Position numbers and translations under genes: made by a program | Shown: positions 16,234-52,050 of the stretch, one piece after another | Layout: each line of letters begins with the position of its first letter | Numbering within the stretch: the first letter of the stretch is position 1 | Notes under the pieces: model-generated | Seen by the model: only the letters and a program-made list of their open reading frames with translations | Database searches by the model: none | Told to the model about the DNA's origin: nothing | NCBI GenBank assembly: GCA_017465565.1 | Contig: JAFTWA010000050.1 | Coordinates: forward strand, 24,415 to 88,414 | Origin: Tyzzerella sp. | GTDB taxonomy: Bacteria; Bacillota; Clostridia; Lachnospirales; Lachnospiraceae | Length of the DNA: 64,000 nt | Reading direction: 5' to 3'

Positions 16234-16815
16234 ATGGGAAATAAGAGAATTATCTTAGCTTCTGCGTCGCCGAGAAGACGTGAACTTTTAGCGCAGGCAG
16301 GTTACGAATTTGAGATACAGGTGAGTCACAAGGAGGAAGTGTATACGAGTACAGAACCGGCAGAAATTGTAAAAGAACTGGCACTTCTGAAAGCAAAAGA
16401 TATTGCGGAGAAGAATGACGCGAAAAACGTAATCGTAATTGGTGCAGACACAGTGGTGGCACATAAAGGTGAAATTCTTGGAAAGCCACAGTCAAAAGAA
16501 GAAGCGTTTCGGATGATAAAAGGCTATCAGGGAGATAAGCATCAGGTTTATACTGGGGTGGCAATTCTGGATTACGATGCTGAGGGTAATGAAAAAATAG
16601 TTAATCACGCCGTGAAAACAGATGTATATGTCAATCCGATGACCGACGAGGAAATCTGGAATTATATCGAAAGCGATAACGTGATGGACAAAGCAGGAAG
16701 CTACGGAATCCAGAGCGGATTTGCAATTCATATTGAGAAGATTGAGGGAGACTACTTTAACGTAGTGGGACTTCCCATTTCATATATTTACGAAGAACTT
16801 AAGAAGAGGGAATGA
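16234..16815 (+). CDS. maf: Maf-family nucleoside triphosphate pyrophosphatase
   Basis: A 193-residue protein. The N-terminal signature is ILASASPRRRELLAQAGYEF, followed by VIGADTVVAHKGEILGKPQS near 69-88 and the C-terminal GSYGIQSGFAIHIEKIEGDY. These are the Maf/YhdE motifs that hydrolyse dTTP, UTP or modified NTPs to limit misincorporation. The 36 upstream in-frame residues are dismissed because AAGAGGAG lies just before ATG 16234. It overlaps the next gene by four bases, so Maf and the metal-chelate ABC transporter are probably co-transcribed. Confidence 0.93.
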   Translation: MGNKRIILASASPRRRELLAQAGYEFEIQVSHKEEVYTSTEPAEIVKELALLKAKDIAEKNDAKNVIVIGADTVVAHKGEILGKPQSKEEAFRMIKGYQGDKHQVYTGVAILDYDAEGNEKIVNHAVKTDVYVNPMTDEEIWNYIESDNVMDKAGSYGIQSGFAIHIEKIEGDYFNVVGLPISYIYEELKKRE

Positions 16816-17780
16816 GGAAAATAATGAAAAGAATACTTGCTATTTTGATGGTAGCGATAATATTGATTATGTCAGGGTGTTCAGAAAGTAAGACGCAGGG
16901 GGTGTCGAAGAACCAAGAGGATAAAGTCACGTTCACGGATGACCTTGGACGTGAGGTGACTGTGGAAAATCCGCAGAGAGTAGCAGCCTTACTCGGAAGT
17001 TTTGCAGATATGTGGTTTTTGGCAGGAGGAACCGTATGTGCCTCAGCTGACGATGCCTGGGATAATTTTCAATTAGATATGCCAGCCGACGCGGTAAATT
17101 TGGGGAAAACAAAAAGCTTGAATCTGGAAAAACTATTTGCGGCAGAACCGGATTTTATCATCGCAAGCACGAATACAAAGATAGATTTGGAATGGAAAGA
17201 AACTTTGGAGAACGCAAAGATTCCAACAGCTTATTTTGATGTGTCTGACTTTGACGACTATCTCCGCGTGCTAAAAATATGTACTGATATTACGGGAAGA
17301 GAAGATTTATATGAGAAAAATGGACTTTCTATACAGAAGCAAATAGAAGAGACCATAAAGAAAAGTGAAGATAGAATTGAAAAAGAGGGTGCGCCAAAAG
17401 TGCTTATCCTTCGCATTTCTGCAGCAAGTGTTCACGCAAAAAACAGTCAGGGAAATGTTTTGGGCGAGATGTTAAAAAAACTTGACTGTGAGAATATTGC
17501 AGACAGCGATAAAACCCTATTGGAGAATATCAGTGTCGAGCACATTTTGAAGCAAGATCCTGATTTCATCTTTTTTGTTCAGCATGGAGATGATAAAGAG
17601 GCTGCCGATGCGAATATCGATAATTTTATTTCCGAAAATCCAGCATGGCAGGAGTTGACTGCAGTAAAAGCGGGAAGAGTTTACAGCATGGAAAAGGAGC
17701 TTTTCAATCTGAAGCCAAATGAGCGCTGGGCAGAAGCTTATGAAAAGCTGGAGGGAATTTTGAACGATGAACAAGAGTAG
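16812..17780 (+). CDS. ABC transporter substrate-binding lipoprotein (FecB/BtuF type)
   Basis: A 322-residue lipoprotein with a signal sequence ending in L-I-M-S-G-C and lipid Cys at about residue 23. The mature protein opens with VTFTDDLGREVTVENPQRVA, typical of periplasmic-binding proteins for Fe-siderophores, haem or cobalamin, and has two lobes joined by a long helix (about 170-190). The start could be ATG 16812 (overlapping maf) or ATG 16824; the second gives a cleaner signal peptide. Permease and ATPase genes follow with overlaps. The ligand cannot be told from sequence; nearby asr genes and cbiK make iron or corrinoid plausible. Confidence 0.88.
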   Translation: MRKIMKRILAILMVAIILIMSGCSESKTQGVSKNQEDKVTFTDDLGREVTVENPQRVAALLGSFADMWFLAGGTVCASADDAWDNFQLDMPADAVNLGKTKSLNLEKLFAAEPDFIIASTNTKIDLEWKETLENAKIPTAYFDVSDFDDYLRVLKICTDITGREDLYEKNGLSIQKQIEETIKKSEDRIEKEGAPKVLILRISAASVHAKNSQGNVLGEMLKKLDCENIADSDKTLLENISVEHILKQDPDFIFFVQHGDDKEAADANIDNFISENPAWQELTAVKAGRVYSMEKELFNLKPNERWAEAYEKLEGILNDEQE

Positions 17781-18762
17781 AAAACGGATTTTTATAGCAG
17801 TGGCGGTGTTGCTTGTTTTAGGAATCATATTGAGTGTCTCCCTGGGAGCAGTTTGCCTGACACCGGCCCAATTGGTGAATGCCATAAAAAATGGTTCTGG
17901 AAGTGGGCTGGAAGGTAATATTTTTTGGTATGTGAGAGTGCCGCGGACGATTGCCTGTCTTCTTGCAGGAGCAGGACTTGCAGTTTCCGGTGTTGTAATT
18001 CAAAGTGTTCTTTCCAATAAATTGGCGTCGCCTGGAATTATTGGTGTAAATGCAGGAGCAGGATTTGCCGTTACAGTTTGCTGTGCACTTGGAGCGTTGA
18101 GTGGCTGGGCCCTCGCGGGCAGTGCGTTTATTGGTGCGCTCTTGGCGGTACTCCTGGTGGTAGGTGCGGCACAGAAAATGAATGCCTCCAGAACAACGGT
18201 AATTCTCGGGGGAGTTGCCGTGAATAGCTTTCTGAATGCAGGCTCCGAAGCAATTATTACACTGTTTCCAGATATAGGAGTAATGAGCAGCGACTTTCGT
18301 GTGGGCGGTTTTACATCGGTCACGATGACCCGATTATTGCCGGCTGGTATTTTAATTCTTATCGGACTTTGCGTATTATTTACATTATGTAACGAACTCG
18401 ACCTGATGAATCTGGGAGAAGAGACCGCCCAGGGGCTGGGACTTCCAGTGAAAAAGATGCGTACTATATTTCTAGCTGTGGCGGCTCTTCTTGCAGGGGC
18501 CAGCGTGAGTTTTGCAGGACTCTTGGGATTTGTAGGGCTTATTATTCCACATATTGCAAGAAGACTTGTGGGCGGAGAGAATAGACATTTGCTCCCATTC
18601 TGCGCCATAGGCGGTGCGGCATTTGTGGTGCTGTGCGATCTGGCTGCAAGACTTGTTTTTCAGCCTTACGAGATACCAGTCGGAATTTTGATGTCCTTCA
18701 TCGGCGGGCCATTTTTTGTTTTCTTATTATTCAAAAACAAAGGAGGGCATAGACGTGATTGA
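17767..18762 (+). CDS. FecCD-family ABC permease (iron chelate/cobalamin)
   Basis: A 331-residue membrane protein with about nine or ten spans. Family marks include VRVPRTIACLLAGAGLAVSG near 58, a GIIGVNAGAGFAV segment near 91 and GLLGFVGLIIPHIARRLVGG near 257. It forms the dimeric channel for the upstream binding protein. The start overlaps the end of the preceding gene by 14 bases, and its own end overlaps the ATPase gene by eight bases, so the three are tightly coupled. Confidence 0.92.
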   Translation: MNKSRKRIFIAVAVLLVLGIILSVSLGAVCLTPAQLVNAIKNGSGSGLEGNIFWYVRVPRTIACLLAGAGLAVSGVVIQSVLSNKLASPGIIGVNAGAGFAVTVCCALGALSGWALAGSAFIGALLAVLLVVGAAQKMNASRTTVILGGVAVNSFLNAGSEAIITLFPDIGVMSSDFRVGGFTSVTMTRLLPAGILILIGLCVLFTLCNELDLMNLGEETAQGLGLPVKKMRTIFLAVAALLAGASVSFAGLLGFVGLIIPHIARRLVGGENRHLLPFCAIGGAAFVVLCDLAARLVFQPYEIPVGILMSFIGGPFFVFLLFKNKGGHRRD

Positions 18763-19516
18763 GATGAAAAATGTATGTGCAGGCTACGGAAACGAAGAAG
18801 TATTACATAATATAAATCTTTCTATTGAACCAGGGAAGGTAACTGTTTTGGTGGGACCGAATGGCTGTGGGAAAAGTACTCTTTTAAAATCTATAATTCG
18901 GTTGAATCCGCATACGTCGGGAACAATCGCAGTTGATGGGGATTTGATTGAGAAGTTGGATTCCAGTGCTCTTGCGCAGAGAATTTCCTATCTTCCGCAA
19001 GGGAAAAAAGTGCCTGATATTACGGTAAGACGAATGGTACTTCACGGAAGATTTACTTACCTTAAATATCCAAGACATTATAGAAAACAGGATTATGAGA
19101 TGGCACAAAAAGCAATGGAGTGGGTTGGAATAGAAGAATTGGCAGAAAAAAATGTAAGTCAGCTTTCAGGAGGAACCCAGCAAAAGGTATACATCGCCAT
19201 GGCTTTGGCACAGGATACACCGGTGATTCTGATGGACGAGCCGACCGCGTATTTGGACATTGGGCACCAGATGAAATTAATGGAGACTGCAAAGGCTTTG
19301 GCGGCGAAGGGAAAAGCAGTCGTTATGGTGCTTCACGACCTTACGCAGGCATTTCGCTTTGCAGATCGAATTGTTGTGATGTCAGAAGGGGAAATCGTGG
19401 CGCAGGGCATGCCGGAAGAGGTATACCAAAGTGCGGTAATAGATACTACGTTTCGTGTCTGTGTGGAACGCATGTTTACTGAATCTGGATGGCAGTATTT
19501 TTATAAAAGTGAATAA
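18755..19516 (+). CDS. FepC/BtuD-type ABC ATPase
   Basis: A 253-residue ATPase. Walker A is VGPNGCGKSTLL near 34, the signature is QLSGGTQQKVYIAMALAQDT near 138 and Walker B is VILMDEPTAYLDIGHQM near 160. I place the start at GTG 18755 because AGGAGG lies eight bases before it. An upstream ATG lies deep in the permease gene, and the next ATG (18764) would need an over-long spacer. It energises import by the two preceding proteins. Confidence 0.9.
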   Translation: MIEMKNVCAGYGNEEVLHNINLSIEPGKVTVLVGPNGCGKSTLLKSIIRLNPHTSGTIAVDGDLIEKLDSSALAQRISYLPQGKKVPDITVRRMVLHGRFTYLKYPRHYRKQDYEMAQKAMEWVGIEELAEKNVSQLSGGTQQKVYIAMALAQDTPVILMDEPTAYLDIGHQMKLMETAKALAAKGKAVVMVLHDLTQAFRFADRIVVMSEGEIVAQGMPEEVYQSAVIDTTFRVCVERMFTESGWQYFYKSE

Positions 19517-19650: not shown

Positions 19651-20649
19651 ATGGGATACAATTTATCAAAAGAAAATGCAGAGAAAGTCCTTCAACAATG
19701 GTTGGAGAAATATGATATTTTTGCTCCAAAGTTGATGGAAGGCGAAGGCTGTTTTTCGGATACAGACATTGTCCGCTATGGAAAAATTAGCAAACTGGAT
19801 GATATTGAGTGGATGAAAAAATCGGATTATTCATTCAAAGAGATTCTGTTAGCGATTAATGAAACTTTATTTTACTTTACGGAAGACCAGACAACAGTTC
19901 CGAAAGGACCAGAAAAGGATATTCTAATCTTTTTGCGCTCATGTGACTTGCATGCAGTGAAGCGTCTGGATGAAATCTATCTGAAAAACGGTTTTGAAGA
20001 TTTTTATTACAGCAGAGTAAGAGAACGGGCAAAATTTATTCTTATGGGTTGCGAAACCACATGTTCATCAGGATTTTGTGTAAGTATGGGTACGAATAAG
20101 TCAGACAATTATGATGCCTACATAAAAGTAGATGGTGATAATGTTTACATGGATTTGAAATGGAGCGAGCTTGCAGATGCTGTAACAGAAGCAGAGGAAG
20201 TGGATGTAACGCCTGATTTTGTGACGGAAAACAAAGAAAAAGTTACATTGCCAAAGAATCTTTCGAATGAAAGCTTTACAAAAGAAATTTGGCAGGAATA
20301 CGGTGCACGCTGTATTGCATGCGGACGCTGCAATTTTGTCTGCCCAACCTGTACCTGCTTTACAATGCAGGATATCTTCTATAAAGATAATCCGAAAGTT
20401 GGTGAGAGACGAAGAGTGTGGGCGTCTTGCCAGATTGACGGCTACACAGATATGGCAGGGGGACATGGTTACCGTAAGAGTCAGGGCGACAGAATGCGTT
20501 TCAAGGTAATGCATAAGATTTATGACTATGAAAAACGTTTTGGATACCCGATGTGTGTAGGCTGCGGTCGATGTGATGATGTCTGTCCTGAGTACATCTC
20601 TTATTCAAACTGCGTGAATCGTTTGGCAAAGGAGGAAAGTGAAGCATGA
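19651..20649 (+). CDS. asrA: anaerobic sulfite reductase subunit A
   Basis: A 332-residue iron-sulfur protein that carries electrons within the AsrABC complex. Two ferredoxin-type clusters are visible: CIACGRCNFVCPTC from Cys221 and CVGCGRCDDVCP from Cys302. Cys pairs before them (LRSCDLHA near 93 and MGCETTCSSGFC near 131) are also typical of AsrA. AsrA takes electrons from ferredoxin or AsrB. It overlaps asrB by four bases. RBS is AAAGGAG. Confidence 0.93.
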   Translation: MGYNLSKENAEKVLQQWLEKYDIFAPKLMEGEGCFSDTDIVRYGKISKLDDIEWMKKSDYSFKEILLAINETLFYFTEDQTTVPKGPEKDILIFLRSCDLHAVKRLDEIYLKNGFEDFYYSRVRERAKFILMGCETTCSSGFCVSMGTNKSDNYDAYIKVDGDNVYMDLKWSELADAVTEAEEVDVTPDFVTENKEKVTLPKNLSNESFTKEIWQEYGARCIACGRCNFVCPTCTCFTMQDIFYKDNPKVGERRRVWASCQIDGYTDMAGGHGYRKSQGDRMRFKVMHKIYDYEKRFGYPMCVGCGRCDDVCPEYISYSNCVNRLAKEESEA

Positions 20650-21437
20650 TGAATCATTACATTCCACAACTTTCTACGATTAAAGAAGTAATCAAACATA
20701 CCGATTTAGAGTATACCTTCCGCATGACCTTTGAAGGTGATGTGAAACCGGGACAATTTTTTGAAATTTCCATTCCGAAATACGGTGAAGCACCGATTTC
20801 AGTAAGCGGTATTGGTGAAGGTACTGTAGATTTTACAATCCGCCGTGTAGGTAAAGTAACCAATGAGATTTTTGAAAATTATGTTGGCGACAAATTCTTT
20901 ATTCGTGGACCATATGGAAACGGATTTGAGATTGAAAATTATAAGAATAAAGAGCTTGTGGTAATTGCTGGAGGTACAGGCCTTTCACCAGTAAGAGGCG
21001 TGGTGGATTATTTTGCACATCACAATACGGAAGCAAAAAGCACGACCTTAATTGCAGGATTTAAATCACCAAAAGATGTACTTTTCAAAGATGATTTCGC
21101 ATTTTGGAAAGATAACATTAACGTAATCCAGACTGTTGACACGGCGCCAGAGGGATATGAGGGACCAGTAGGTATGGTAACCAAATATATTCCAGATTTG
21201 AAATTCGAGAATATTGAGAACACAGCGTTTATCTGTGTTGGACCGCCGGTTATGATTCGATTTACGGTCATGGAAATTTTGAAATTAGGTGTTCCAGAAG
21301 AAAACATCTGGATTTCCCACGAAAGAAAGATGTGCTGCGGACTCGGAAAATGCGGTCACTGTAAAATTGGCTCTACATATATTTGCCTGGATGGACCAGT
21401 ATTTAATTATGTAGATGGCAAGGAACTGATTGATTAG
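20646..21437 (+). CDS. asrB: anaerobic sulfite reductase subunit B (FAD/2Fe-2S)
   Basis: A 263-residue flavoprotein of the PyrK/HydG-like ferredoxin reductase family. The FAD-binding beta barrel fills the N-terminal hundred residues (RGPYGNGFE), the NAD-binding part contains VVIAGGTGLSPVRGVVDYFA near 104, and a C-terminal 2Fe-2S motif is CCGLGKCGHCKIG followed by YICLDGPVF. It accepts electrons from NAD(P)H and passes them to AsrA/AsrC. It starts inside the asrA stop. Confidence 0.93.
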   Translation: MMNHYIPQLSTIKEVIKHTDLEYTFRMTFEGDVKPGQFFEISIPKYGEAPISVSGIGEGTVDFTIRRVGKVTNEIFENYVGDKFFIRGPYGNGFEIENYKNKELVVIAGGTGLSPVRGVVDYFAHHNTEAKSTTLIAGFKSPKDVLFKDDFAFWKDNINVIQTVDTAPEGYEGPVGMVTKYIPDLKFENIENTAFICVGPPVMIRFTVMEILKLGVPEENIWISHERKMCCGLGKCGHCKIGSTYICLDGPVFNYVDGKELID

Positions 21438-21448
21438 GAGGTGTCGGC

Positions 21449-22423
21449 ATGGGATTAGATATTAATACGAAAAAATTAAAAAAGAATGCGTTCCGCGTTT
21501 CAAAACATCGTGGAATCGGCGCATCTAGAATCCGTGTGCCAGGCGGTTATCTGAATGCAGAAGTACTTGGCATGGTGCAGGAAATTGCTCAAACCTATGG
21601 AAATGGGTATGTTCATCTTACGACTCGCCAGGGCTTTGAAATTGAAGGAATCCGTCTGGAAGATATGGATGAAATCAACAAAAAACTTCAGCCAATTATT
21701 GAAACGGTAGGAATCAATCAGGATGAACCAAACAAAGGTTATCCGGCATCTGGAACAAGAAATATCACAGCATGTATCGGAAACAACGTCTGTCCATTTG
21801 CCAACTACAACACAGCAGAGCTGGCAAGAAAGATTGAAAAGGAAGTATTTCCACATGACCTTCACTTTAAGATTGGTCTTACTGGATGCTCTAATGACTG
21901 TGGTAAGGCGAGAATGCATGACTTTGGTATCATCGGCCAGACAATGCCACAGTATGATCCAATGCGCTGTGTGAACTGTCAGGCATGTATCAAAGGCTGT
22001 AAGAGCCTCTCTGTAGATGCACTTCGTTCTGAAAACTATAAGATTGTGAGAGATACAGAAAAATGTGTGGGTTGCGGTGTATGTATCACGAAATGTCCAA
22101 CACGTGCACTTACAAGAAGCAAAAAGAAATATTACAAGCTTACGATTATGGGACGAACCGGAAAGAGAAATCCAAGACTCGGGGAAGACTTCCTTATCTG
22201 GGCTGATGCAGAAAATATCATAAAAATAATTCTCAATACTTACAAATTTGTAGATAAATACATTTCACCAGATGCGCCAGGAAGAAAAGAGCATATTGGA
22301 TATATTATCGACAGAGTAGGATTTGAAGAATATAAAAAATGGGCACTGGACGGTGTGGAATTGATGCCAGAGACAATCATGAAAGATTGTGTTTACTGGA
22401 GCGGAATTCATTTTGACCGTTAG
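21449..22423 (+). CDS. asrC: anaerobic sulfite reductase subunit C (sirohaem enzyme)
   Basis: A 324-residue catalytic subunit. The sirohaem/4Fe-4S motif is C-x5-C (ACIGNNVCPFA) followed by C-x3-C (TGCSNDCGKA near 150), and two ferredoxin clusters follow (CVNCQACIKGC and CVGCGVCITKCP). It reduces sulfite to sulfide, and related enzymes also reduce nitrite. Next to a nitrate-reductase-like gene, nitrite is a real alternative substrate. RBS is AGGAGGTG. Confidence 0.93.
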   Translation: MGLDINTKKLKKNAFRVSKHRGIGASRIRVPGGYLNAEVLGMVQEIAQTYGNGYVHLTTRQGFEIEGIRLEDMDEINKKLQPIIETVGINQDEPNKGYPASGTRNITACIGNNVCPFANYNTAELARKIEKEVFPHDLHFKIGLTGCSNDCGKARMHDFGIIGQTMPQYDPMRCVNCQACIKGCKSLSVDALRSENYKIVRDTEKCVGCGVCITKCPTRALTRSKKKYYKLTIMGRTGKRNPRLGEDFLIWADAENIIKIILNTYKFVDKYISPDAPGRKEHIGYIIDRVGFEEYKKWALDGVELMPETIMKDCVYWSGIHFDR

Positions 22424-22437
22424 GAAAGGAAAGATAT

Positions 22438-24531
22438 ATGAAAAAAATACAATCAACCTGTAATTATTGTGCCATCGACTGCAATCTTGATTTCTATGTA
22501 GAAGACAACCGCATCGTAAAGGTTGTGCCTACAAAGGGTTATCCTGTAAACGATGGTTTCAGCTGTATCAAAGGTCTTTCTTTAGATAAGCAGCAAAAAA
22601 CGGTAAAACCGAACAGTCTTCCAAAGATTCGCCAGGAAGATGGAAGCTTCAAAGAAGTAGCCTGGGAGGAAGGATTCCAGCATGTAGCTGATAAACTAAA
22701 AGAAATTCAGGCAAAATATGGTCAGGAAAGTGTTGCCGGCATTAGTACAGGCCAACTGACGTTGGAAGAATTTGCTCTCTTTGGACACGTGATGCGCGAC
22801 CATTTAAAAGCAAATGTAGACGGTAATACACGTCTTTGTATGGCAACTGCAGTAGTAGCGCACAAACAGAGCTTTGGTTTCGACGCACCTGGGTATACAT
22901 TAAATGACCTTGAGCTTTCTGATACAATCGTTCTCATTGGTGCAAATCCTGTAGTAGCCCATCCTATCGTATGGGGAAGGATTCAAAAGAATAAAGTGCC
23001 TGGCCACAAACTGATTGTTGTAGACCCTAGAAAGTCTGAATCAGCAATGAATGCAGATTACTGGTATGGTCTCAAGCATAGAAGTGACTTGCTGTTATTA
23101 TATACGATTGCAAACCAATTAATCGAAAAGGATTACTTGGACCACCAATTCATTGAAGCGCATACAGAGAAATTTGAAGAATTCAAAGAATTTGTAAAAG
23201 CCTATACATTAGAACGCGGCGTGGAAGGAACAGGCCTTTCGGCAGAACAGATTTTAGAGTTTGTGGAATTGATTCACAGCGGTAAGAAGGTGTCATTCTG
23301 GTGGACCATGGGTGTTAATCAGGGGTATGAAGCGGTTCGTACTGCCCAGGCTATCATTAACATTGCATTGATGACAGGTAATATTGGAAAGCCTGGTACA
23401 GGTGCCAATTCAATTACCGGTCAGTGCAACGCTATGGCATCCCGCGCTTACTCTAATACAGCGGTATTCTACGGCGGCGGTGATTTCACAAATCCAGCGA
23501 GAAGAGCCCGTATTGCTGAGGTGTTTGGAGTTGACGAGAGCAAGCTTGCTGAAAAACCTACAAAGACATATAACCAGATTATTGAAGGTATTAATGCTGG
23601 CGAGATTAAGGCTCTGTGGATTTTGTGTACAAATCCAAGACACAGCTGGACAAACAATGAAACCTTTGCTTCTGCGGCTAAGAAACTGGAACTTTTCGTT
23701 GTTCAGGATATTTATGACACCATCGAAAGTGCTGAAGACTGTACCGTATACTTCCCGGTTGTTCCGGGCATCAAAAAAGAAGGAACATACATCAACATGG
23801 AGAGACGTCTTTCAGCAATGCGTCCTGTTTTAGAGCGTGGCGAAAATGAAATTTCAGACTACGAAGCAATCCTCGGTGTAGGAAAAGCTTTGGGAATGGG
23901 CGATGAATTAAAAGGCTGGGAAACTCCAAAGGATTGTTTCAATCTTATGAGAGAATGTTCTAGAAACATGCCTTGTGATATTACGGGTGTAACTTGGGAG
24001 ATGTTAGAAAACTCTCATGGTATCCAGTGGCCATATCCGGAAGGAAAAGAAGAAGAAAACAAAGAAGAACAGAGAAGACTTTACTCTGACGGTAAATTCT
24101 TTACACCATCGAAAAAAGCACAGTTTATGTTTGAAGATGTACGTGAAAATCCACTTCCAACAACAGACGAGTTCCCGCTAGTTTTCAATACAGGACGTGG
24201 AAGTGTGGGACAGTGGCACACACAGAGCCGTACAAAAGAAGTGAAATTTGTAGAAGATGTTTCTGCTAAAAAGGCATACATCTATATGAATACAAAGATG
24301 GCAGAAGAAAATGGCGTGAAAGAGATGGATGAAATACGTGTATATTCTGTGAATGGTCAAGATGCTGTATTTGCAGTAAAAATCACAGATAATGTTCAGT
24401 ACAACGAATTATATGCGCCAATTCATTATATTGAATGCAATAAATTAACGCCATCTTTATATGACACTTATTCAAAAGAACCTTCATACAAAGCGACACC
24501 AGTTCGATTTGAAAAATGTGAAGAAGTATAG
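22438..24531 (+). CDS. NasA-like molybdopterin oxidoreductase (nitrate-reductase type)
   Basis: A 697-residue bis-MGD enzyme. The N-terminal 4Fe-4S ligands are Cys8, Cys11, Cys15 and Cys42. The candidate Mo ligand is Cys134 in NTRLCMATAVVAHKQSFG, which matches assimilatory nitrate reductases (SRLCMSSAV) more than formate dehydrogenases, and no selenocysteine is present. The C-terminal cofactor domain shows FNTGRGSVGQWHTQSRTKEV. There is no twin-arginine signal, so it is cytoplasmic. It sits between asrC and genes for a four-cluster ferredoxin and an FAD reductase, so it is fed from NAD(P)H. Nitrate is the best guess; other oxyanions or S-oxides cannot be excluded. Confidence is high for the family and moderate for the substrate. 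Confidence 0.85.
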   Translation: MKKIQSTCNYCAIDCNLDFYVEDNRIVKVVPTKGYPVNDGFSCIKGLSLDKQQKTVKPNSLPKIRQEDGSFKEVAWEEGFQHVADKLKEIQAKYGQESVAGISTGQLTLEEFALFGHVMRDHLKANVDGNTRLCMATAVVAHKQSFGFDAPGYTLNDLELSDTIVLIGANPVVAHPIVWGRIQKNKVPGHKLIVVDPRKSESAMNADYWYGLKHRSDLLLLYTIANQLIEKDYLDHQFIEAHTEKFEEFKEFVKAYTLERGVEGTGLSAEQILEFVELIHSGKKVSFWWTMGVNQGYEAVRTAQAIINIALMTGNIGKPGTGANSITGQCNAMASRAYSNTAVFYGGGDFTNPARRARIAEVFGVDESKLAEKPTKTYNQIIEGINAGEIKALWILCTNPRHSWTNNETFASAAKKLELFVVQDIYDTIESAEDCTVYFPVVPGIKKEGTYINMERRLSAMRPVLERGENEISDYEAILGVGKALGMGDELKGWETPKDCFNLMRECSRNMPCDITGVTWEMLENSHGIQWPYPEGKEEENKEEQRRLYSDGKFFTPSKKAQFMFEDVRENPLPTTDEFPLVFNTGRGSVGQWHTQSRTKEVKFVEDVSAKKAYIYMNTKMAEENGVKEMDEIRVYSVNGQDAVFAVKITDNVQYNELYAPIHYIECNKLTPSLYDTYSKEPSYKATPVRFEKCEEV

Positions 24532-24542
24532 GGAGGAAGCTT

Positions 24543-24971
24543 ATGTATCGAATTAAAATTGACAGAAGCCGCTGCATCGGCTGCCTTACTTGTGTGACAG
24601 CGTGCGTTGTAAGTCATGAAACTGAGAGTGGCGATGCAAGAAACCGTGTGACAATCGACAGTGAGATCAAACCAGCACCTATTTTCTGCCGTCACTGTGA
24701 CAGACCAGAGTGTGTATATACATGCATGACAGGCGCAATGAAGAAAAATCCGGAAACCGGATATGTAGAATACGACAAAGAACAGTGTGCAAGCTGCTAC
24801 ATGTGTATCATGTCCTGTCCATTTGGAATTCTAAAACACGATAGTATTAACAAGACAGAGATTATGAAATGTAATATGTGTGTGCACAGAAGTGAAGATG
24901 GTTCTGGAAATCCAATGTGTGTGGAAAAATGTCCAATGCATGCAATTACAGTAGAGGAGGTGGGAAGATGA
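24543..24971 (+). CDS. four-cluster ferredoxin-type electron-transfer subunit
   Basis: A 142-residue protein of the HycB/DmsB type. Four cysteine groups are visible: CIGCLTCVTAC, CRHCDRPECVYTC, CASCYMCIMSC and CNMCVHR with CVEKC, enough for four 4Fe-4S clusters. It most likely wires the FAD reductase to the molybdenum enzyme. It overlaps the FAD gene by four bases. RBS is GGGAGGAAG. Confidence 0.9.
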   Translation: MYRIKIDRSRCIGCLTCVTACVVSHETESGDARNRVTIDSEIKPAPIFCRHCDRPECVYTCMTGAMKKNPETGYVEYDKEQCASCYMCIMSCPFGILKHDSINKTEIMKCNMCVHRSEDGSGNPMCVEKCPMHAITVEEVGR

Positions 24972-26197
24972 GATATGTGGTAATCGGAGCTTCGGCTGCA
25001 GGAATCAATGGTGTCCGCGAGCTTAGAAAACTAGACAAAGAAAGTGAAATCATTCTCATTTCAAAAGACAAGGAAATTTATTCCCGCTGTATTCTGCATC
25101 ACTACCTTGGCGGTGAGAGAACTGTTCCAGAACTGAACTTTGCGGAACACAATTTTGAAGAACTTTATAATGTGCAGTGGATCAAAGGAAAAGCCTGTAC
25201 GGGATTAAAACCGGAAGAGAAAAAGGTGATTCTGGAAGACGGAGAGGAAGTAAAGTATGACAAACTCCTCATCGCTACAGGCTCCCACACATTTGTCCCA
25301 CCGATTAAGAACTTAAAAGAAGCAAAAAATGTGATTGGATTCCGTAATATTGAAGACATCGAAACCTTGAAAGAAGTTGCAAAGACACACAAGAATTTCC
25401 TAGTAATGGGAGGAGGTCTTGTTGGACTTGACTGTACAAGCGGTCTCCTTGAACTAGGAGTAAATGTGACGCTTGTCGAAATGGCAAAATGGATGCTGGT
25501 AAGACAGCTTGACCCACGTGCAGCAAAGACGTATCAGGATGCCTTCGAGGCAAAAGGCGTGAAACAGTACTATGGTGACGGTATTGCAGAAGCTGTTATG
25601 AACGGGGAAGGCGTGATTACATCTGTAATTTTATCCAGCGGAACAGAAATTCCATGCGATTATGTCGTTATCACAGCGGGCGTTCGTTCGAATGTAGAAT
25701 TCCTGGAAGGTTCTGGAATTGAGACGAGCAAATTTGGCCTTATTTACGATGAAACAGGCAAAACAAGTGATGAAAATATTTATGGGGCCGGAGATGTTTC
25801 AGGAACAAGTCCAATCTGGCCGGTTGCTGTAAAAGAGGGAATTATCGCGGCAAGCAATATGGCAGGCGTGCCAAGAAAGATGACAGATTTTTTCGCAAGT
25901 AAATCTACGATGAATTTCCTTGGAATTCCAAGTATGTCTCTTGGCAATGTAAATCCAGAAGACGATTCTTACTGTGTAGAGATTCGCGACACGAAAGATT
26001 CCTATAAGAAGATTGTTCATCAGAATGGCAAGATTGTTGGAGCAATCCTTCAGGGAGATCTGGCGTACGGCGGTATCCTTCAGCAGTTGATTGCAAGAAA
26101 GATTGATGTCACAAAAGTGAAAAAGCCAATTTTTGATGTGGATTATTCAGACTTTTTCCATATCAATGAAAACTTTGAATTCTATTATGAAGATTAG
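24968..26197 (+). CDS. NirB/NasB-like FAD-dependent NAD(P)H oxidoreductase
   Basis: A 409-residue pyridine nucleotide-disulfide oxidoreductase fold: FAD motif VVIGASAAGINGVRELRKLD at the N-terminus, second dinucleotide motif VMGGGLVGLDCTSGLLELG near 148, and C-terminal FAD site IYGAGDVSG near 275. It resembles the FAD part of NirB/NasB. It lacks their 2Fe-2S and sirohaem domains, so it is a stand-alone reductase. ATG at 24968 follows GAGGAGGTG, and longer upstream starts lie in the ferredoxin gene. It probably oxidises NAD(P)H for the molybdenum enzyme. Confidence 0.87.
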   Translation: MRYVVIGASAAGINGVRELRKLDKESEIILISKDKEIYSRCILHHYLGGERTVPELNFAEHNFEELYNVQWIKGKACTGLKPEEKKVILEDGEEVKYDKLLIATGSHTFVPPIKNLKEAKNVIGFRNIEDIETLKEVAKTHKNFLVMGGGLVGLDCTSGLLELGVNVTLVEMAKWMLVRQLDPRAAKTYQDAFEAKGVKQYYGDGIAEAVMNGEGVITSVILSSGTEIPCDYVVITAGVRSNVEFLEGSGIETSKFGLIYDETGKTSDENIYGAGDVSGTSPIWPVAVKEGIIAASNMAGVPRKMTDFFASKSTMNFLGIPSMSLGNVNPEDDSYCVEIRDTKDSYKKIVHQNGKIVGAILQGDLAYGGILQQLIARKIDVTKVKKPIFDVDYSDFFHINENFEFYYED

Positions 26198-26208
26198 TGA
26201 GGAAAAAT

Positions 26209-27138
26209 ATGAAAAGATTAGAAAAAATGCCGGTACCGGTACTTCCAACATTTGTTGGCGCGCTGACATTGTCTAATGTGTACTCTGGAATGGGATATCT
26301 TTGGGTTCGTCACATTACGATGTGGGCGGCAACGATTATTCTTTTACTTTATTTAGTGAAAATAATTAGATTTCCAAAAACATGTAAGCAGGAATACGAA
26401 ACAGTCGTTCCAAGTAGTTTATATGCGGCTTTTAACATGATACTTATGATTCTTGGAAGCTATTATTTTGATTATGTTCCAGCCTTAGGGAAAGGAATGT
26501 GGGGCATTGCAATTGTGATGCATGCGGCACACATTTTAGTATTTACCTATCGGAATGTAATCAAAAAACGCGATGTGAATACGTTTGTTCCAAGCTGGTA
26601 TGTTACATATAACGGAATCATGGTAAGCTGTGTTGTGGGCGGCGCAATGAACGCGGCTGGTGTATTAAAATACATTGTATATTATGGTATTATCATTTAC
26701 TTTGTGATTCTCCCATTCATGCTTTGGAGACTGATGAAGGTAGAAGTAAAAGCACCAGTTTATCACACAATGGCAGTTTTACTTGCTCCATGTAGTCTCT
26801 GCGTGGTGAGTTACTTAAATGTGATTCAGAATCCAAATCAGATTATACTATATATTTTATATGCATGTGTATTAGCATCACTTACATTCATAATCATTAA
26901 GCTTCCAAAATTCTTTGCATTCCCATTTGCACCGGGATTTGCAGGAATGACCTTCCCTATGGCAATTGGTATCGTGGCAAGCAACAAAATGGCAGGATAC
27001 TTAGCAGGAGCAGGAAACGAAGCGTTGGCAGGTGTGGTTACACAGATTAGTGGAATTCAAATATATCTGACAACAATGATTATTGGATTTGTGCTTTTAA
27101 ACTTTGTCATGATGGCATTAAAAGTGGAGAGAAAATAA
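26209..27138 (+). CDS. TDT-family (TehA/SLAC1-like) anion channel
   Basis: A 309-residue membrane protein with about ten helices. The opening P-V-P-V-L-P-T-F-V-G-A-L-T-L-S-N and repeated hairpins resemble the tellurite-resistance/dicarboxylate (TDT) family, which includes TehA, SLAC1 and the Ssu1 sulfite exporter. These channels pass nitrate, sulfite or similar anions, so it suits a cluster reducing an inorganic oxyanion. ATG 26209 follows TGAGGAAAA; a GTG at 26197 overlaps the upstream stop and is less likely. Confidence 0.75.
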   Translation: MKRLEKMPVPVLPTFVGALTLSNVYSGMGYLWVRHITMWAATIILLLYLVKIIRFPKTCKQEYETVVPSSLYAAFNMILMILGSYYFDYVPALGKGMWGIAIVMHAAHILVFTYRNVIKKRDVNTFVPSWYVTYNGIMVSCVVGGAMNAAGVLKYIVYYGIIIYFVILPFMLWRLMKVEVKAPVYHTMAVLLAPCSLCVVSYLNVIQNPNQIILYILYACVLASLTFIIIKLPKFFAFPFAPGFAGMTFPMAIGIVASNKMAGYLAGAGNEALAGVVTQISGIQIYLTTMIIGFVLLNFVMMALKVERK

Positions 27139-27140
27139 AA

Positions 27141-27710
27141 ATGAAAATTGGTTGTGTAATCCTGGCAGGCGGGAAAAGCTCCCGCATGGGAAAAGACAAA
27201 GCGTTATTGGAAATAAATGGTAAGAATTTTATAAAACAATTGACTGAAGAGCTTGATTGGTTTGGAGAAAAACTGATTGCCCGCGGAAACAATAGTGAGA
27301 TACAGGAGGTCTCGTGGCCTGTGATGCCTGATGTATATCAGGAGCGCGGTCCAATCGGCGGACTTCATGCGGCGCTTTCATTATGTGAATCGGATGCATT
27401 GTTTTGCGTTTCTTGTGACATGCCGCTGATACAAAGCCCGCTTGCAAAAAGTCTGTGTGATTCCATGGACGAAGCCTGTGATGCAGTTGTTGCAAAGGCA
27501 GAAGACGGAAGAATCCATCCGCTGTGTGCAGTGTACCGGAAAGAGGCAGCGGCAGTTTTTGAGGAACAGATTCTGTCTGGAAATAATCGTATCATGAGTG
27601 CACTTGATAAGATGCGGGTAAAATATATTACCATTGATTTTGAAAGGGGAGCACAACAGCTATTTAATGTAAATACTCCAGAAGAGTATTTGGAGATAAG
27701 AAAGCCATAA
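27141..27710 (+). CDS. mobA: molybdenum cofactor guanylyltransferase
   Basis: A 189-residue nucleotidyltransferase that joins GMP to molybdopterin to give the guanine dinucleotide form needed by the upstream bis-MGD enzyme. The signature LAGGKSSRMGKDKALLEI is at residues 8-25, and the catalytic-region CDMPLI with a preceding GPIGGL lies near 72-98. The gene starts only two bases after the channel gene. No other Moco biosynthesis genes (moaA, moeA) are in the window. Confidence 0.92.
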   Translation: MKIGCVILAGGKSSRMGKDKALLEINGKNFIKQLTEELDWFGEKLIARGNNSEIQEVSWPVMPDVYQERGPIGGLHAALSLCESDALFCVSCDMPLIQSPLAKSLCDSMDEACDAVVAKAEDGRIHPLCAVYRKEAAAVFEEQILSGNNRIMSALDKMRVKYITIDFERGAQQLFNVNTPEEYLEIRKP

Positions 27711-27714
27711 AAAT

Positions 27715-27835
27715 GAAAAAACCGGATTTCGAGTCGATGATACCTAAACGCTTGGCGCATGGTGCTCGACCGTGGATGGTTCCACCGGAGTGTATCTGGA
27801 AACGGGTATGCTTTCCAATGTGAGAAGGAGTTCGT
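27715..27835 (+). promoter_or_regulatory. structured RNA leader, candidate Moco/Tuco-type riboswitch
   Basis: Between mobA and the next gene lie about 120 bases that fold. GTCGA (27733) pairs with TCGAC (27766), inside it ACC with GGT, and CGC-TTG-GCG caps the arm. A second hairpin is CCGTGGA-TGGT-TCCA-C-CGG (27770-27788), and a third is TGGAAA (27797) with TTTCCA (27812). The AAGGAG of the following gene is just beyond. The segments TAAACGCTTGGCGCATGGT and CTCGACCG recall the molybdenum-cofactor riboswitch, and the context (mobA upstream, Mo enzyme in the operon) agrees. I could not run a covariance search, so the class is tentative; a structured leader is more certain. Confidence 0.5.
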
Positions 27836-28402
27836 ATGAGATATTCAAAATTATCTATGTTAAATTTCATGGCTTTATGTTGTATACTTGGTCTATTTAC
27901 CAAGAAATTGATAAATCCTTTTGCCAATATTATTACAGAGGCATTACATATCCCAGGGGGAATCAGCACTGGATTCTCCATCATGTTTCTAGTGATTGCA
28001 GTAGAAATTGTGAAAGGGAAGCACTGCGGGACTCTGATGGCGACTGTGCAGGGGCTTCTTGCACTTGCGCTTGGAAGAATCGGAAGTATGGGAATGCTGA
28101 TGCCGCTTGGCTATATTGTAACGGGTGTTGCTATTGATTTGATTTACGGCTTGCAGAAATACATCAAGTGTTCCAGAACGGAGCGAATGGTATTTGCAAA
28201 TGCCTTGGCAGCAGTCATGGCGTCCGTAACGGCAAATGTGCTGGTGTTTCATTTGCATGGACCGGTCTTATGGCTATACCTGTGTGTGTCGGCGACAAGC
28301 GGAACCATGTATGGATTTTTAGGCTCAGCTGTTGCAGCGCGCCTTTATCCTATATTTGAAAATAGTAATGGAAAGAGAGAGGATTATCATGAAATCGCGT
28401 AA
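27836..28402 (+). CDS. ECF-transporter S-component-like membrane protein
   Basis: A 188-residue hydrophobic protein with about six helices, the size and layout of ECF S components that bind vitamins or metals. Examples are MLNFMALCCILGLFTKKLIN, ISTGFSIMFLVIAVEIVKG and LMATVQGLLALALGRIGSMG. The conserved short helix-breaking loops fit the family, but I cannot name the ligand. It lies directly behind the structured leader and is co-transcribed with the anchored protein downstream. A molybdate, tungstate or pterin-cofactor ligand is suggested only by context. The ECF ATPases and T component must be shared from elsewhere. Confidence 0.6.
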   Translation: MRYSKLSMLNFMALCCILGLFTKKLINPFANIITEALHIPGGISTGFSIMFLVIAVEIVKGKHCGTLMATVQGLLALALGRIGSMGMLMPLGYIVTGVAIDLIYGLQKYIKCSRTERMVFANALAAVMASVTANVLVFHLHGPVLWLYLCVSATSGTMYGFLGSAVAARLYPIFENSNGKREDYHEIA

Positions 28403-28835
28403 AGCTATTATTTTAGGAGTAGTATTAATTATACTTACTGCAATCGCTGCAGTAATTCATCTGAGTACACGAGAGGAAGTACCAGAAAATGCAGTACAGA
28501 TTTCTGCAAATGACAAGACATACACGATTGATATTAAAAAATTAAACTATGAGCAGGTGGAAGGAATTCGCGTGAATGGAAAAGGCGAAGAGATTCCAGT
28601 AGAAGGAGCTGGCATTGCGCTAAAAGATATTTTGGCACAGGAAAAGATTACAGAGTATTCGAAAGTGACGGTTGTTGCGGATGATTCTTATAGCGCAGAA
28701 CTTACGGCTGAAGAGATAAAGGAAGACGAAAAGGTGTATTTGCTAAATGAAGAGGAGAGTCTTCGTTTGATAGTTTTCGGAGATGAAAATAGTAAACGCA
28801 GTGTATCGAATGTAGTGCAGATTATTGTAGAATAA
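28389..28835 (+). CDS. membrane-anchored protein with sulfite-oxidase-like (SUOX) fold
   Basis: A 148-residue protein with an N-terminal anchor (AIILGVVLIILTAIAAVIHL) and an extracytoplasmic domain. The pattern IALKDILAQEKITEYSKVTV, then D-x-Y-S-A-E-L, E-S-L-R-L-I-V-F-G and V-S-N-V-V-Q-I-I-V-E matches the core of molybdopterin-binding sulfite-oxidase-type domains. It is half their size and has no Cys to ligate molybdenum, so it is not an oxidoreductase by itself. It overlaps the S-component gene by 14 bases. RBS is GAGAGAGGA. Cofactor or substrate capture for the S component is my inference. Confidence 0.6.
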   Translation: MKSRKAIILGVVLIILTAIAAVIHLSTREEVPENAVQISANDKTYTIDIKKLNYEQVEGIRVNGKGEEIPVEGAGIALKDILAQEKITEYSKVTVVADDSYSAELTAEEIKEDEKVYLLNEEESLRLIVFGDENSKRSVSNVVQIIVE

Positions 28836-31344: not shown

Positions 31345-32385
31345 ATGATTAAAGATGTAAGATTGACGCAGATGACAAAGACGGCAGGTTGAGCGGCTAA
31401 GATAGGTCCGGAGACCCTTGCTCAGGTTCTGGGTAAGTTGCCAAAATTTGAAGATGACAATTTATTAGTAGGAATTGAAACATCTGATGACGCTGCTATC
31501 TATAAAATAACTGATGATATTGCAATGATTCAAACTGTTGACTTCTTCACTCCAATCGTCGACGATCCTTATATGTTTGGACAAATTGCAGCAGCAAACT
31601 CATTAAGCGATGTATATGCCATGGGCGGTGAACCGAAGGTGGCGCTTAATATCGTAGGTTTTCCAAATTGTTTGGACCCAATGATTTTAGGAGATATTCT
31701 TGCAGGGGGTGCAGCAAAAGTAAAAGAAGCAGGTGCTGTACTCGTAGGCGGACACTCTGTTCAGGATGATGAACCGAAATACGGACTTTGCGTATCAGGT
31801 TTCGTGCATCCGGACAAGATATTTAAAAATTATGGATGTAAACCGGGAGATGTTTTGATTCTGACAAAACAAATTGGAAGCGGTATTGTAAATACAGCAA
31901 TTAAGGCACAAATGGCATCCGACGAGGCAATAGCCGAGGCGATTACCGTTATGTCGTCTTTGAATAAAAAGGGAAAAGAAGTCGTAGAAAATTATCCTGT
32001 TACAGCTTGTACGGATATAACAGGATTTGGACTTCTTGGTCATTGTGCAGAGATGGCTTCTGCCAGCGAAGTAACATTTGAACTGAATGTAGAAGAGATT
32101 GCATACATGCAGGACGCTGTTTCCTATGCGAAGATGGGACTTGTTCCGGCGGGAGCATACAAGAACCGTCAGCATACGGGCAAATTAGTAGATTTTTCGC
32201 GGGTAGAAGAACATTACATCGATCTTTTATACGATCCACAGACATCCGGAGGATTGCTCGTCAGTGTTGCTCCAGAATGTGTGGAATCTATGATGGAAGA
32301 TTTTGAAAATAAAGGAATGGATACGAAAGTATCAATTATAGGAAGAGTAGTGGAAAAAGGCGATAAATTAATTCGTCTATATTAG
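31345..32385 (+). CDS. selD: selenophosphate synthetase, itself a selenoprotein
   Basis: A 346-residue enzyme that makes selenophosphate from selenide and ATP. ATG 31345 opens a frame that runs through an in-frame TGA at 31390-31392 (residue 16). The context K-T-A-G-U-A-A-K-I-G-P matches the active-site Cys-x-x-Lys loop of SelD, with Sec at the Cys17 position and Lys19 as the catalytic partner. Downstream are the typical DDAAIYKITDD, LVGGHSVQDDEPKYGLCVSG and TGFGLLGHC motifs. A hairpin usable as a bacterial SECIS lies 16 bases after the TGA. A start after the TGA would lose the catalytic residue. Confidence 0.96.
31405..31436 (+). promoter_or_regulatory. candidate SECIS hairpin in selD
   Basis: CCGGAGACC (31408-31416) pairs with GGTTCTGG (31425-31432) around loop CTTGCTCA. 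The stem has one wobble-rich stretch and one bulge. The loop is about 27 bases after the UGA, within the range of bacterial SECIS elements bound by SelB. Confidence 0.6.
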
Positions 32386-32395
32386 GAGTTTAAAG

Positions 32396-33790
32396 ATGAA
32401 TAAAAATCTTTTATATCGCAGCATCCCAAAAGTAGATGTACTTTTGGAAAATGAGGAAATAAAGGCCAGCATGGAATATTACGGCAGGGACATTGTTGTG
32501 GAAGCCATTCGTGTGGAAATGGACGAGCTCCGTGCATTTATCGGAACCTGTGAGGATGAAGAGGCTGCAATGGAGAAAATTACAAAGCTCACAGAAAGAA
32601 TTCTCGAACGCGCAGAAAAGATGCTCCAGCCAAATATGAAACGCATCATCAATGCAACTGGCACCATTCTTCATACCAATCTTGGACGAGCACCAATCAG
32701 CCCAGAACATATGAAGCACGTTATGGAGATTGCGGTGGGGTACTCGAATCTGGAATATAACTTGAATGCAGGAAAACGTGGTGAAAGATATTCTCATTTT
32801 GAAGAATTGCTTTGTAAGATTACAGGTGCAGAAGCAGCTATGGCAGTAAATAATAATGCTGCGGCAGTTATGCTTGTGCTCAGCTCTATCGGTAAAGGAG
32901 GAGAAGTTATTGTTTCCCGCGGAGAGCTGGTGGAAATCGGCGGCAAGTTCCGAATTCCAGATGTTATGGTTCAAAGTGGTGCTGCTTTGGTGGAAATTGG
33001 AACAACAAATAAGACACATTTTTCTGATTATGAAGATGCAATTACAGAAAACACAGCGGCTTTATTAAAGGTTCATACAAGCAACTACCGTATCGTCGGA
33101 TTTACAGAGACTGTGGGAATCGATGAGTTAGTTACCCTCAGCCGAAAACACGATATTCCAATCGTTGAAGATTTAGGCAGTGGTGTGCTTTTAGACCTTA
33201 GCAAATACGGCATCACATACGAACCGACAGTTCAGGATTCGATTCGGGCAGGTGCTGACGTTGTAAGCTTTAGCGGGGACAAGCTTCTTGGCGGTCCACA
33301 GGCAGGTATTATTGTCGGTAAGAAGAAATACATCGACAAGATGAAGAAAAACCCTCTTACCAGAGCGCTTCGTATCGATAAATTTACAGCAGCAACGCTG
33401 GAGGTTGTGCTCAAGGAATATTTATCAGAAAAGCGTGCTGTAAAGAATATTCCAGTATTACAGATGATTACAAAATCACAGGAAGATATTATTAAAGAAG
33501 CGAGAAAATTAAAACGTTTCTTAACAGGTTTAGAGTTGAACGCAGAGCTTGGAATTGAGAATTGCGAGTCACAGATTGGAGGAGGTTCTCTTCCGTTGGA
33601 AAGAATTCCAAGTAAAGCAGTTACCATTAAGCCAAGAAATATTTCGACGGCAGAGCTTGAAGTCCGTATGCGTTTCCTTTCTGTACCGATTATTCCAAGA
33701 ACAGTGAATGATAAGATTGTCTTGGATGTAAGAACAATTGGCGTAGATAACTTTGAAGCCTTCCGCCAATTAAAGGATATCTGTGATTAG
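32396..33790 (+). CDS. selA: L-seryl-tRNA(Sec) selenium transferase
   Basis: A 464-residue PLP enzyme that converts Ser-tRNA(Sec) to Sec-tRNA(Sec). Family marks include INATGTILHTNLGRAPIS near 83, YSNLEYNLNAGKRGERY near 117, and the PLP lysine Lys296 in SFSGDKLLGGPQAGI, one residue off the position I recall for the E. coli enzyme. Length is normal. It follows selD by ten bases, with TAGGAGTTT as RBS. Confidence 0.97.
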   Translation: MNKNLLYRSIPKVDVLLENEEIKASMEYYGRDIVVEAIRVEMDELRAFIGTCEDEEAAMEKITKLTERILERAEKMLQPNMKRIINATGTILHTNLGRAPISPEHMKHVMEIAVGYSNLEYNLNAGKRGERYSHFEELLCKITGAEAAMAVNNNAAAVMLVLSSIGKGGEVIVSRGELVEIGGKFRIPDVMVQSGAALVEIGTTNKTHFSDYEDAITENTAALLKVHTSNYRIVGFTETVGIDELVTLSRKHDIPIVEDLGSGVLLDLSKYGITYEPTVQDSIRAGADVVSFSGDKLLGGPQAGIIVGKKKYIDKMKKNPLTRALRIDKFTAATLEVVLKEYLSEKRAVKNIPVLQMITKSQEDIIKEARKLKRFLTGLELNAELGIENCESQIGGGSLPLERIPSKAVTIKPRNISTAELEVRMRFLSVPIIPRTVNDKIVLDVRTIGVDNFEAFRQLKDICD

Positions 33791-33806
33791 AAAGGTCATT
33801 TAAGAT

Positions 33807-35723
33807 ATGAAAAATATTATTATAGGAACAGCGGGACATATCGACCACGGTAAGACTACTTTAATCAAAGCGCTTACAGGGAGAAATACAGACCGCTGGG
33901 AGGAAGAACAGCGAAGAGGAATTACCATTGACCTCGGGTTTACCTATTTTGATTTAAAAAACGGAGACCGTGTCGGAATTATTGATGTTCCTGGACACGA
34001 GCGCTTTATTAATAATATGGTGGCTGGTGTTGTGGGCATGGACCTTGTTATGCTGGTAATTGCAGCAGACGAAGGGATTATGCCACAGACGAGGGAACAC
34101 ATGGATATCCTGGGACTCCTCGGCATTGAAAAAAGTATTATCGTGCTAAATAAATGCGATTTGGTGGATGAGGACTGGCTGGAACTGGTAAAGGAAGAGA
34201 TTCAGGAAGAACTGGAGGGAACCTTCCTCGACGGTTCTCCAATTGTAGAAATCTCAGCAGTGACTGGTCAGGGGATTCCAGAACTAGTTGACACTATTGA
34301 ACGACTTACGTCAGAAGAAGTGGTGGAAAAGGATATTAATACGATTCCGCGTCTTCCGATTGATCGTGCCTTCAGTTTATCTGGTTTTGGAACCATTATC
34401 ACAGGGACACTTCTTGCGGGAACTATCACAAAAGATGACAATCTGCAGATGTACCCGATGGGAAAAGAGTGCAAAATCCGAAGCATTCAGGTTCACGGAC
34501 AAGATGTGGACAAATGCTACGCCGGCCAGCGTGTAGCCATTAACCTGTCCAATGTGAAGAAGAGTGAAATTAGCAGAGGATGTGTGCTTGCTCCACCGAA
34601 TAATATGAAAAATACAGAACTTTTGGATGTGCGGTTAAATGTGCTTCCGGGTTCGAAACGTGTGCTTACCAATCACAGCCGTCTGCATTTGTTCACGGGA
34701 ACGAGTGAAATCTTATGCAGAGCCGTGCTGTTAGATAAGGAAGAAATAGGACCAGGTGAAAGTGGTTTTGTGCAGCTTCGTTTAGAAGAGGAGATTGCAC
34801 TTCGCCGTGGCGACAAGTTCGTGGTTCGATTCTACTCACCAATGGAAACCATCGGCGGTGGTGTTGTGCTCGAGCCGAATCCAAAACGTAAACGCCGTTT
34901 TCAAGATGATGTGATTGAAGAACTGAAACGCAAAGAGTCAGGTTCTTCAGAGGATGTCATCGAGATGCATGTGAAGTCTCACGGAGAAACTATGATTACA
35001 CTCACGGAGTTGGCGAAGCTCACGGCTCTTTCTATGGAAGAGGTAGTGGAGGACGTGGATTCCTTAGAGGCGCAAGGTATCGTGAGAGTATTCCCCATGA
35101 AGAAGGATACTTATGTATGGCACACAGTACATGAACAGCAAATCAGACATGAATTAGTGAAAGTACTTCGCACTTATCATGAAAAATATCCATACCGCTA
35201 TGGTATGAAAAAGGCAGAAGTACACATGACATATATGAAGAAAGTCAAATTAAATGTATTTGACATGTATATGGAACTGCTGGAACAGGAAGAAGCAGTG
35301 ATGCGATACCAAGAATATTTGCAGCTTCCTGAATTTGAAGTGGCAAGAGATGCTACATATGAGAAAGTAAAGAAGACAGCAGAGAAAGCATTCCAGAAAG
35401 CCCAATTTGATTTTGTCCGTTTTTCTGAAATTTCATTTGCGGATATTGACGGTGAAGTGGTAGAAGATATTTTGCTTCTATTAATGGACGAGAGGTTTAT
35501 TGTAAAAATTGAAGAAAATATCTATACATTGCAGACAATCATTAACCATGCAGAAGAAGTGATTCGCGCACGTTTGAAAGAAAATCCGCTGATTACCATT
35601 GCGGAGGTGCGTGATTTATTAAATACAAGCAGAAAAAGTGCGAAACCAATTTTGGAATATATGGATAGCATTAAAGTAACAAAGAAAAATGGAACAGAGA
35701 GTGAAAGGGTAGCATTTATATGA
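33807..35723 (+). CDS. selB: selenocysteine-specific elongation factor
   Basis: A 638-residue GTPase that delivers Sec-tRNA(Sec) to UGA codons with a SECIS. G1 is [14 protein letters not shown] near residue 6, G3 is DVPGHERF and G4 is NKCD near 112. EF-Tu-like domains 2 and 3 follow, then the C-terminal winged helices (about 370-638) that bind the SECIS hairpin. It overlaps the LysR gene by four bases. Confidence 0.97.
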
Positions 35724-51952: not shown

Positions 51953-52050
51953 GGGGGTAGTTAGGTGACTGGTGTGCCTCCTAGTCTTCAAAACTAGTGT
52001 AGGGCGTTAAGAGCGTCCTGGGTGGGTTCGATTCCCACATACCTCCGCCA
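51953..52050 (+). tRNA. selC: tRNA-Sec (anticodon TCA)
   Basis: A 98-base tRNA. The anticodon arm is CTAGT-CTTCAAA-ACTAG with TCA at 51988-51990. The T arm is GTGGG-TTCGATT-CCCAC. The long variable arm folds as AGGGCG with CGTCCT. The eight-pair acceptor (GGGGGTAG with ATACCTCC) has one G-U and one terminal mismatch, followed by discriminator G and encoded CCA. The long acceptor and variable arms and the UCA anticodon are diagnostic. It serves the UGA codons of selD and prdB. Confidence 0.95.

Follow-up and report, generated by a model that had tools for sequence, protein, structure and literature searches.

The locus was examined in a window of 64,000 nucleotides, the whole stretch of DNA that was analysed, in which a MobA-like gene, a Moco (molybdenum/tungsten cofactor) riboswitch aptamer and two small genes, here called S and X, follow one another on the forward strand. 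The MobA-like molybdenum cofactor guanylyltransferase is encoded at positions 27141–27710 (PF12804, NTP_transf_3, E = 2.3e-34; TIGR02665, E = 1.8e-33, below the cut-off of that model). The aptamer occupies positions 27715–27846, where the covariance search matched RF01055 over its full length (model positions 1–135) with 57.7 bits (gathering score 36) and an E value of 1.7e-12. When the 64,000-nucleotide window was rescanned at the gathering threshold, RF01055 again matched at these positions, and this aptamer was the single RF01055 match in the whole assembly. S (27836–28402) encodes an ECF S-component-like membrane protein of 188 amino acids and X (28389–28835) a putative membrane-anchored, Cys-free protein of a SUOX-fold family with 148 amino acids. 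The first-pass annotation of this stretch had described three folded RNA elements after mobA, followed by an ECF-S-like gene and an anchored protein with a SUOX-type core lacking Cys, and had proposed a Moco-type covariance match as the check on the leader. That match was obtained, the mobA-like gene indeed ends ahead of the leader, and both protein assignments are supported by the relatives described below; the leader is folded as claimed, but the three elements are not separate, being stems of one RF01055 aptamer.

The 5' strand of stem P1 (27725–27730) pairs with 27827–27832, and this 3' strand overlaps the Shine-Dalgarno sequence of S (AAGGAG, 27825–27830); the ATG of S, at 27836, lies within the 3' end of the RF01055 match. 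Since a closed P1, the state expected with bound ligand, would mask the ribosome site, the arrangement of the leader suggests an OFF switch acting on translation. Stem P3 is visible in the RF01055 alignment of the window aptamer, and P3 is reported to correlate with Moco and not with tungsten metabolism (PMC2408646). The known RF01055 regulons, with molybdate transporter or moa genes, share the RNA family and P3 with this locus, whereas an ECF-type unit is controlled here, in genomes without MoaA, MoaC and MoeA. Neither S nor X, which follow the aptamer, matched the Mod, Tup or Wtp families of molybdate/tungstate ABC importers in Pfam and NCBIfam.

The protein encoded by S, taken alone, matched no Pfam or NCBIfam family above cut-off. 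PF09819, which we take to be the family containing the thiamine-related ECF S component YkoE, was matched by 14 of 18 S-family members, the window S not among them, at E values of 1 or better (best 1.6e-14). NCBIfam gave nothing meaningful for the S family (best E = 0.0056, to a SecB model, in one of 18 members), and the S-family profile had no match among solved chains at E 10. The hydropathy of the family alignment presented about five to six hydrophobic segments. These sequence comparisons point to a relationship between the S family and ECF S components. YkoE is described as a group I ECF S component (PMC5037267); the S family resembles it in the PF09819 matches and in the EcfA, EcfA' and EcfT genes that accompany many members, and departs from it in the lack of a match for the window S alone and in the SUOX-type partner, the Moco riboswitch and the MobB linkage found on the S side. 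No EcfA, EcfA' or EcfT gene lies beside the window S.

X presents a single N-terminal hydrophobic segment (by eye) and contains no Cys, so that the Cys ligand for molybdenum of the Oxidored_molyb enzymes is lacking. The window protein alone again matched no Pfam or NCBIfam family above cut-off, and its assignment was drawn from relatives: PF00174 (Oxidored_molyb) was matched by 8 of 13 X-family members, the window X not included, at E values of 1 or better (best 4.3e-10), and among NCBIfam models a diheme-protein model was matched by 8 of the 13 (best 2.2e-7) and a sulfite dehydrogenase model by 5 (best 2.4e-5). The best solved relatives of the X-family profile were 7kos and 7kou, deposited as 'Pterin Binding Protein' (E = 1.7e-4), followed by 7kom (0.0073) and, behind these, by sulfite oxidases (0.016 and weaker). 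PruR, the protein of 7kos, is reported to reside in the periplasm, to have a SUOX fold that lacks the molybdenum Cys and to bind reduced pterins, with a preference for tetrahydromonapterin; the residues named are position 102, which is Asn or, in some groups, Asp, together with Tyr104 (or Phe) and Trp160 (PMC13259868). The window X carries D99-x-Y101, and D-x-Y/F was found in all 13 aligned X proteins, aligned to N-D-Y of 7kos; from the spacing, these residues probably correspond to PruR positions 102 and 104. A Trp near the domain end was present in 8 of the 13 X proteins and absent in the window-type ones (window, L001, L002, L021 and L023), the PruR alignment stopping short of that position. 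Taken together, the comparisons point to a Cys-less SUOX-fold domain related to the PruR-type pterin-binding proteins. As in the PruR-DcpA pair, a Cys-less SUOX-type domain with an aligned D/N-x-Y motif would lie outside the membrane; here, however, the partner of X is an ECF S-like protein and not DcpA, and X is membrane-anchored and under a Moco riboswitch. No DcpA-type regulator was found near X, where the neighbours are S, MobA, a molybdoenzyme and transporter genes. The truncated site of PruR is considered likely to be too small for Moco in a 2026 review (PMC13259868), and for this reason X may bind a smaller pterin, or just a portion of Moco.

An FdhF-like molybdopterin enzyme, encoded upstream on the same strand at 22438–24531 (PF00384, PF01568 and PF04879), is probably the protein that uses the cofactor. 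At E 1e-10 no other PF00384 match was found in the assembly, and the best solved matches of this enzyme were YjgC and formate dehydrogenases.

The distribution of S was studied in an order sample of 246 genomes, the window genome (G000) included, and in a phylum sample of 398 genomes. S was carried by 17 of the 246 order genomes, the window genome counted, and the S profile matched 70 of the 398 phylum genomes. From the phylum counts, 22 of these 70 were excluded for weak matches (E from 3e-8 to 2.5e-17), and G000 and G041 because the order sample covers them, which leaves 46 strong phylum carriers. Counted on the strand of S and no more than 8 kb from it, an X-type gene was found at 34 of the 46 loci, EcfT at 34, EcfA at 36, MobB at 32, a RIO-like kinase at 15, a type I phosphodiesterase at 14 and an FMN_bind protein at 10, the family names having been assigned from single members; X and EcfT occurred together at 31 of the 46. 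One frequent arrangement of the complete cassette runs FMN_bind, SUOX-type protein, S, phosphodiesterase, X, EcfA, EcfA', EcfT, MobB and RIO. Of the 18 phylum carriers without MoaC, 17 had MobB no further than 8 kb from S. The window-type cassette (the window's own, L001, L002, and those of the order genomes G041, G103 and G143) is smaller and lacks its own ECF module; in it, MobA, a molybdopterin enzyme or both adjoin S and X. The small RIO-like kinase stands at the cassette end, often adjoining MobB, at L024, L025, L026, L027, L030 and L032, and a pterin-phosphorylating role is conceivable for it.

These neighbourhoods bear on the idea that the role of S and X lies with an unrelated vitamin or in redox work in the envelope, the link to Moco being an accident of regulation. 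PF09819 includes, presumably, the thiamine-related YkoE, and the FMN_bind protein in 10 of the 46 phylum clusters suggests redox chemistry; nevertheless, the Moco riboswitch, MobB, MobA and molybdo- or tungstoenzymes recur in linkage with the unit in several genome families, and an unrelated role is scarcely credible.

The capability of the carriers to make Moco was judged from the biosynthesis genes. MoaA (TIGR02666, above cut-off), MoaC and MoeA_N were present in the same 6 of the 17 order carriers, and none of MoaA, MoaC, MoaE and MoeA was found in the other 11, among them the window genome, whose assembly is 88.6% complete. The carriers without biosynthesis genes include G131, a single contig that is 100% complete, and G041, a 100% complete genome of the window's family in which a molybdoenzyme, MobA, the riboswitch, S and X lie at one place. 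A molybdo- or tungstoenzyme was present in 10 of these 11 carriers, with PF00384 in 7 and an in-cluster aldehyde ferredoxin oxidoreductase in 3 (one of them checked with Pfam); in G177, no molybdopterin enzyme was found by PF00384, the sole family searched in that genome. The riboswitch precedes S in 9 of the 11. Over the whole order sample, MoaC was found in 62 and MoeA in 39 of the 246 genomes, and because the matches, where present, were nearly all very strong, low search sensitivity is unlikely to be the cause of the absences. The absence of MoaE was dropped as an argument, since this gene, which none of the 17 carriers has, is likewise absent from 58 of 61 further order genomes, 56 of them chosen for having MoaC. 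With MoaE in 3 of 61 non-carriers and MoaC so much more frequent than MoeA, it looks unsettled whether molybdopterin is synthesised in this order or MoaC has another use there.

In a cell without MoaA, MoaC and MoeA, molybdate should be unusable, and without MoeA the same applies to metal-free molybdopterin. Import of molybdate or tungstate by the S/X unit would be in line with the molybdate transporter genes known downstream of other Moco riboswitches (PMC2408646). The presence of MoaC in 28 of the 46 phylum carriers also favours such a cargo. There are, moreover, ECF systems for cobalt and nickel. Against it, MoaC is lacking in 11 of the 17 order carriers and in 18 of the 46 phylum carriers, where the metal alone should be useless, genomes without MoaC have more than their share of riboswitch-controlled S operons, and the partner X belongs to a pterin-binding type of family; metal import is therefore regarded as very unlikely. 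Import of a metal-free pterin (molybdopterin, a precursor or a small reduced pterin) that is finished or otherwise used in the cell is unlikely, though less so than metal import. It agrees with the resemblance of X to PruR and its preferred ligand and reportedly small pocket. A ThiF/MoeB-like protein, checked by family search, is encoded in the clusters of four order carriers (L025, L027, L028 and L029), in three of them with a MoaD-like protein, and metal insertion would be within the reach of the 6 order carriers that have MoaA, MoaC and MoeA. Nevertheless, the 11 of 17 order carriers devoid of MoaA and MoaC also lack MoeA, which inserts the metal; the regulator is a riboswitch for Moco, and MobA and MobB act after metal insertion. 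The retention of Moco enzymes, of the guanylylation step (where MobA or MobB was found) and of a Moco sensor without biosynthesis is most simply accounted for by an importer supplying Moco itself.

The idea that carriers in general are unable to make Moco was tried and rejected, MoaC being found in 28 of the 46 phylum carriers and in 19 of 34 phylum non-carriers, the latter drawn by eye from 321 non-carriers, at about equal intervals between G246 and G446. Many carriers are therefore probably able to make the pterin. In the MoaC-bearing carriers the system may supplement their own synthesis, a frequent role of vitamin importers, or some members of the family may have other specificities. Conversely, strong PF00384 matches without MoaC and without S were found in G185, G037 and G195, and in G037 the riboswitch is present.

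A riboswitch was found in the S operon of 15 of the 17 order carriers and was absent at S in G103 and G143; of the two relatives L002 and L001, the former has one at S and the latter does not. For the phylum, an RNA model (R1) was built from 26 riboswitches, some of them from loci later searched, and the phylum loci matched by it were for this reason rechecked with Rfam. A riboswitch was present at the S locus in 18 of the 46 strong carriers, each of the 18 being confirmed by Rfam; a match of 22.3 bits at L141 was dropped. All 38 R1 matches above 55 bits lay upstream of S and on its strand, and in 32 of them the first recognised gene starts no more than 150 bases away or overlaps. In the order, 34 genomes have a riboswitch; of these, S was present in 9 of the 10 without MoaC compared with 6 of the 24 with MoaC (Fisher p = 0.0015, ignoring shared ancestry). 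Similarly, the riboswitch stood at S in 12 of the 18 phylum carriers that lack MoaC, against 6 of the 28 that have it (p = 0.0046), and, when the count is restricted to loci with X, in 12 of 16 and 6 of 18, respectively (p = 0.020), values which likewise take no account of shared ancestry. A second Moco-type riboswitch was observed before the aldehyde ferredoxin oxidoreductase gene at L027 (3784–3900), L028 (3905–4021) and L029 (6134–6249).

The reading favoured here, with a probability of roughly two in three, is that the S/X unit is an ECF-type importer of Moco, that is, of metal-bound molybdopterin, or of a close derivative, in a cell that does not make Moco. The cofactor-uptake proposal of the first-pass annotation thus gains support from the RF01055 match, the ECF S and SUOX-type relatives, the linkage to EcfA, EcfA', EcfT and MobB, and the absence of biosynthesis genes in 11 of the 17 carriers. 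X, anchored outside the membrane, would bind the pterin part of the cofactor through its Cys-less SUOX fold and offer the cofactor to S, which would dock on an ECF module and move it across the membrane. In many relatives the module would be the dedicated EcfA-EcfA'-EcfT, and in the window genome it is presumably a shared housekeeping one. In the cell, MobA (window) or MobB (relatives) would help to convert the cofactor to the guanine dinucleotide form, in the window genome for the FdhF-like enzyme. When Moco is plentiful, its binding to the leader RNA would bring P1 over the Shine-Dalgarno sequence, and translation of S would stop. In the larger relatives, Moco could be freed from its dinucleotide forms (MGD and MCD) outside the cell by the type I phosphodiesterase/nucleotide-pyrophosphatase, whose start resembles that of a lipoprotein (by eye). 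The odds seem evenly balanced for a complete scavenging pathway, in which SUOX-fold surface proteins catch Moco, a surface nucleotide pyrophosphatase strips the dinucleotides, an ECF transporter imports the metal-bound cofactor and a Moco riboswitch controls the uptake, so that molybdo- and tungstoenzymes work in bacteria without any Moco biosynthesis.

In the open-access literature searched, subscription papers and preprints lying outside its scope, no bacterial Moco importer was found. Each component (riboswitch, ECF transporter and PruR-like domain) is of a known kind; their combination and function were not found in that literature. Related statements concern some type 11 secretion proteins, for which a 2025 paper suggests a possible part in the uptake of cobalamin or molybdopterin (PMC12282271), and an Escherichia coli modelling paper, where Moco uptake reactions are given as an example of unrealistic gap-filling (PMC3423039). 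The dietary uptake of Moco described for Caenorhabditis elegans (PMC9793310) is alike in that a cofactor made by others is used, and differs in that the user is an animal; the same source presents the passage of Moco across the membrane as an open question, linked to the therapy of human Moco deficiency. The S/X unit, carried by a relative of gut species that seems incapable of making Moco, suggests that some bacteria take up Moco ready-made. If this is true, Moco would be a shared vitamin of microbial communities, the genome-based prediction of the capacity for Moco enzymes would change, and candidate proteins for moving Moco across the membrane would be at hand.

A possible further part of the system is a type II ABC importer encoded on the forward strand at 16812–19516, with a PF01497 binding protein, a FecCD-type permease and an ATPase. 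The binding protein (16812–17780), whose best solved matches were iron- and siderophore-binding proteins, shares 66% identity over 300 amino acids with the second half of an X fusion at L002, and behind this fusion, under a Moco riboswitch, lie relatives of the window permease (63%) and ATPase (55%). Because X is fused at L002 to a relative of this binding protein, the ABC importer is possibly tied to the same task as S and X, or to the capture of molybdenum in another form. Between the importer and mobA, positions 19651–27138 hold one run of sulfite-reductase-like genes (AsrABC by eye), the FdhF-like molybdoenzyme, Fe-S proteins, pyridine-nucleotide oxidoreductase proteins and a TehA/SLAC1-like channel, possibly a single sulfur-oxyanion or formate pathway. 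SelD-, SelA- and SelB-like genes (by eye) were observed at 31438–35723, and a selenocysteine tRNA at 51953–52046.
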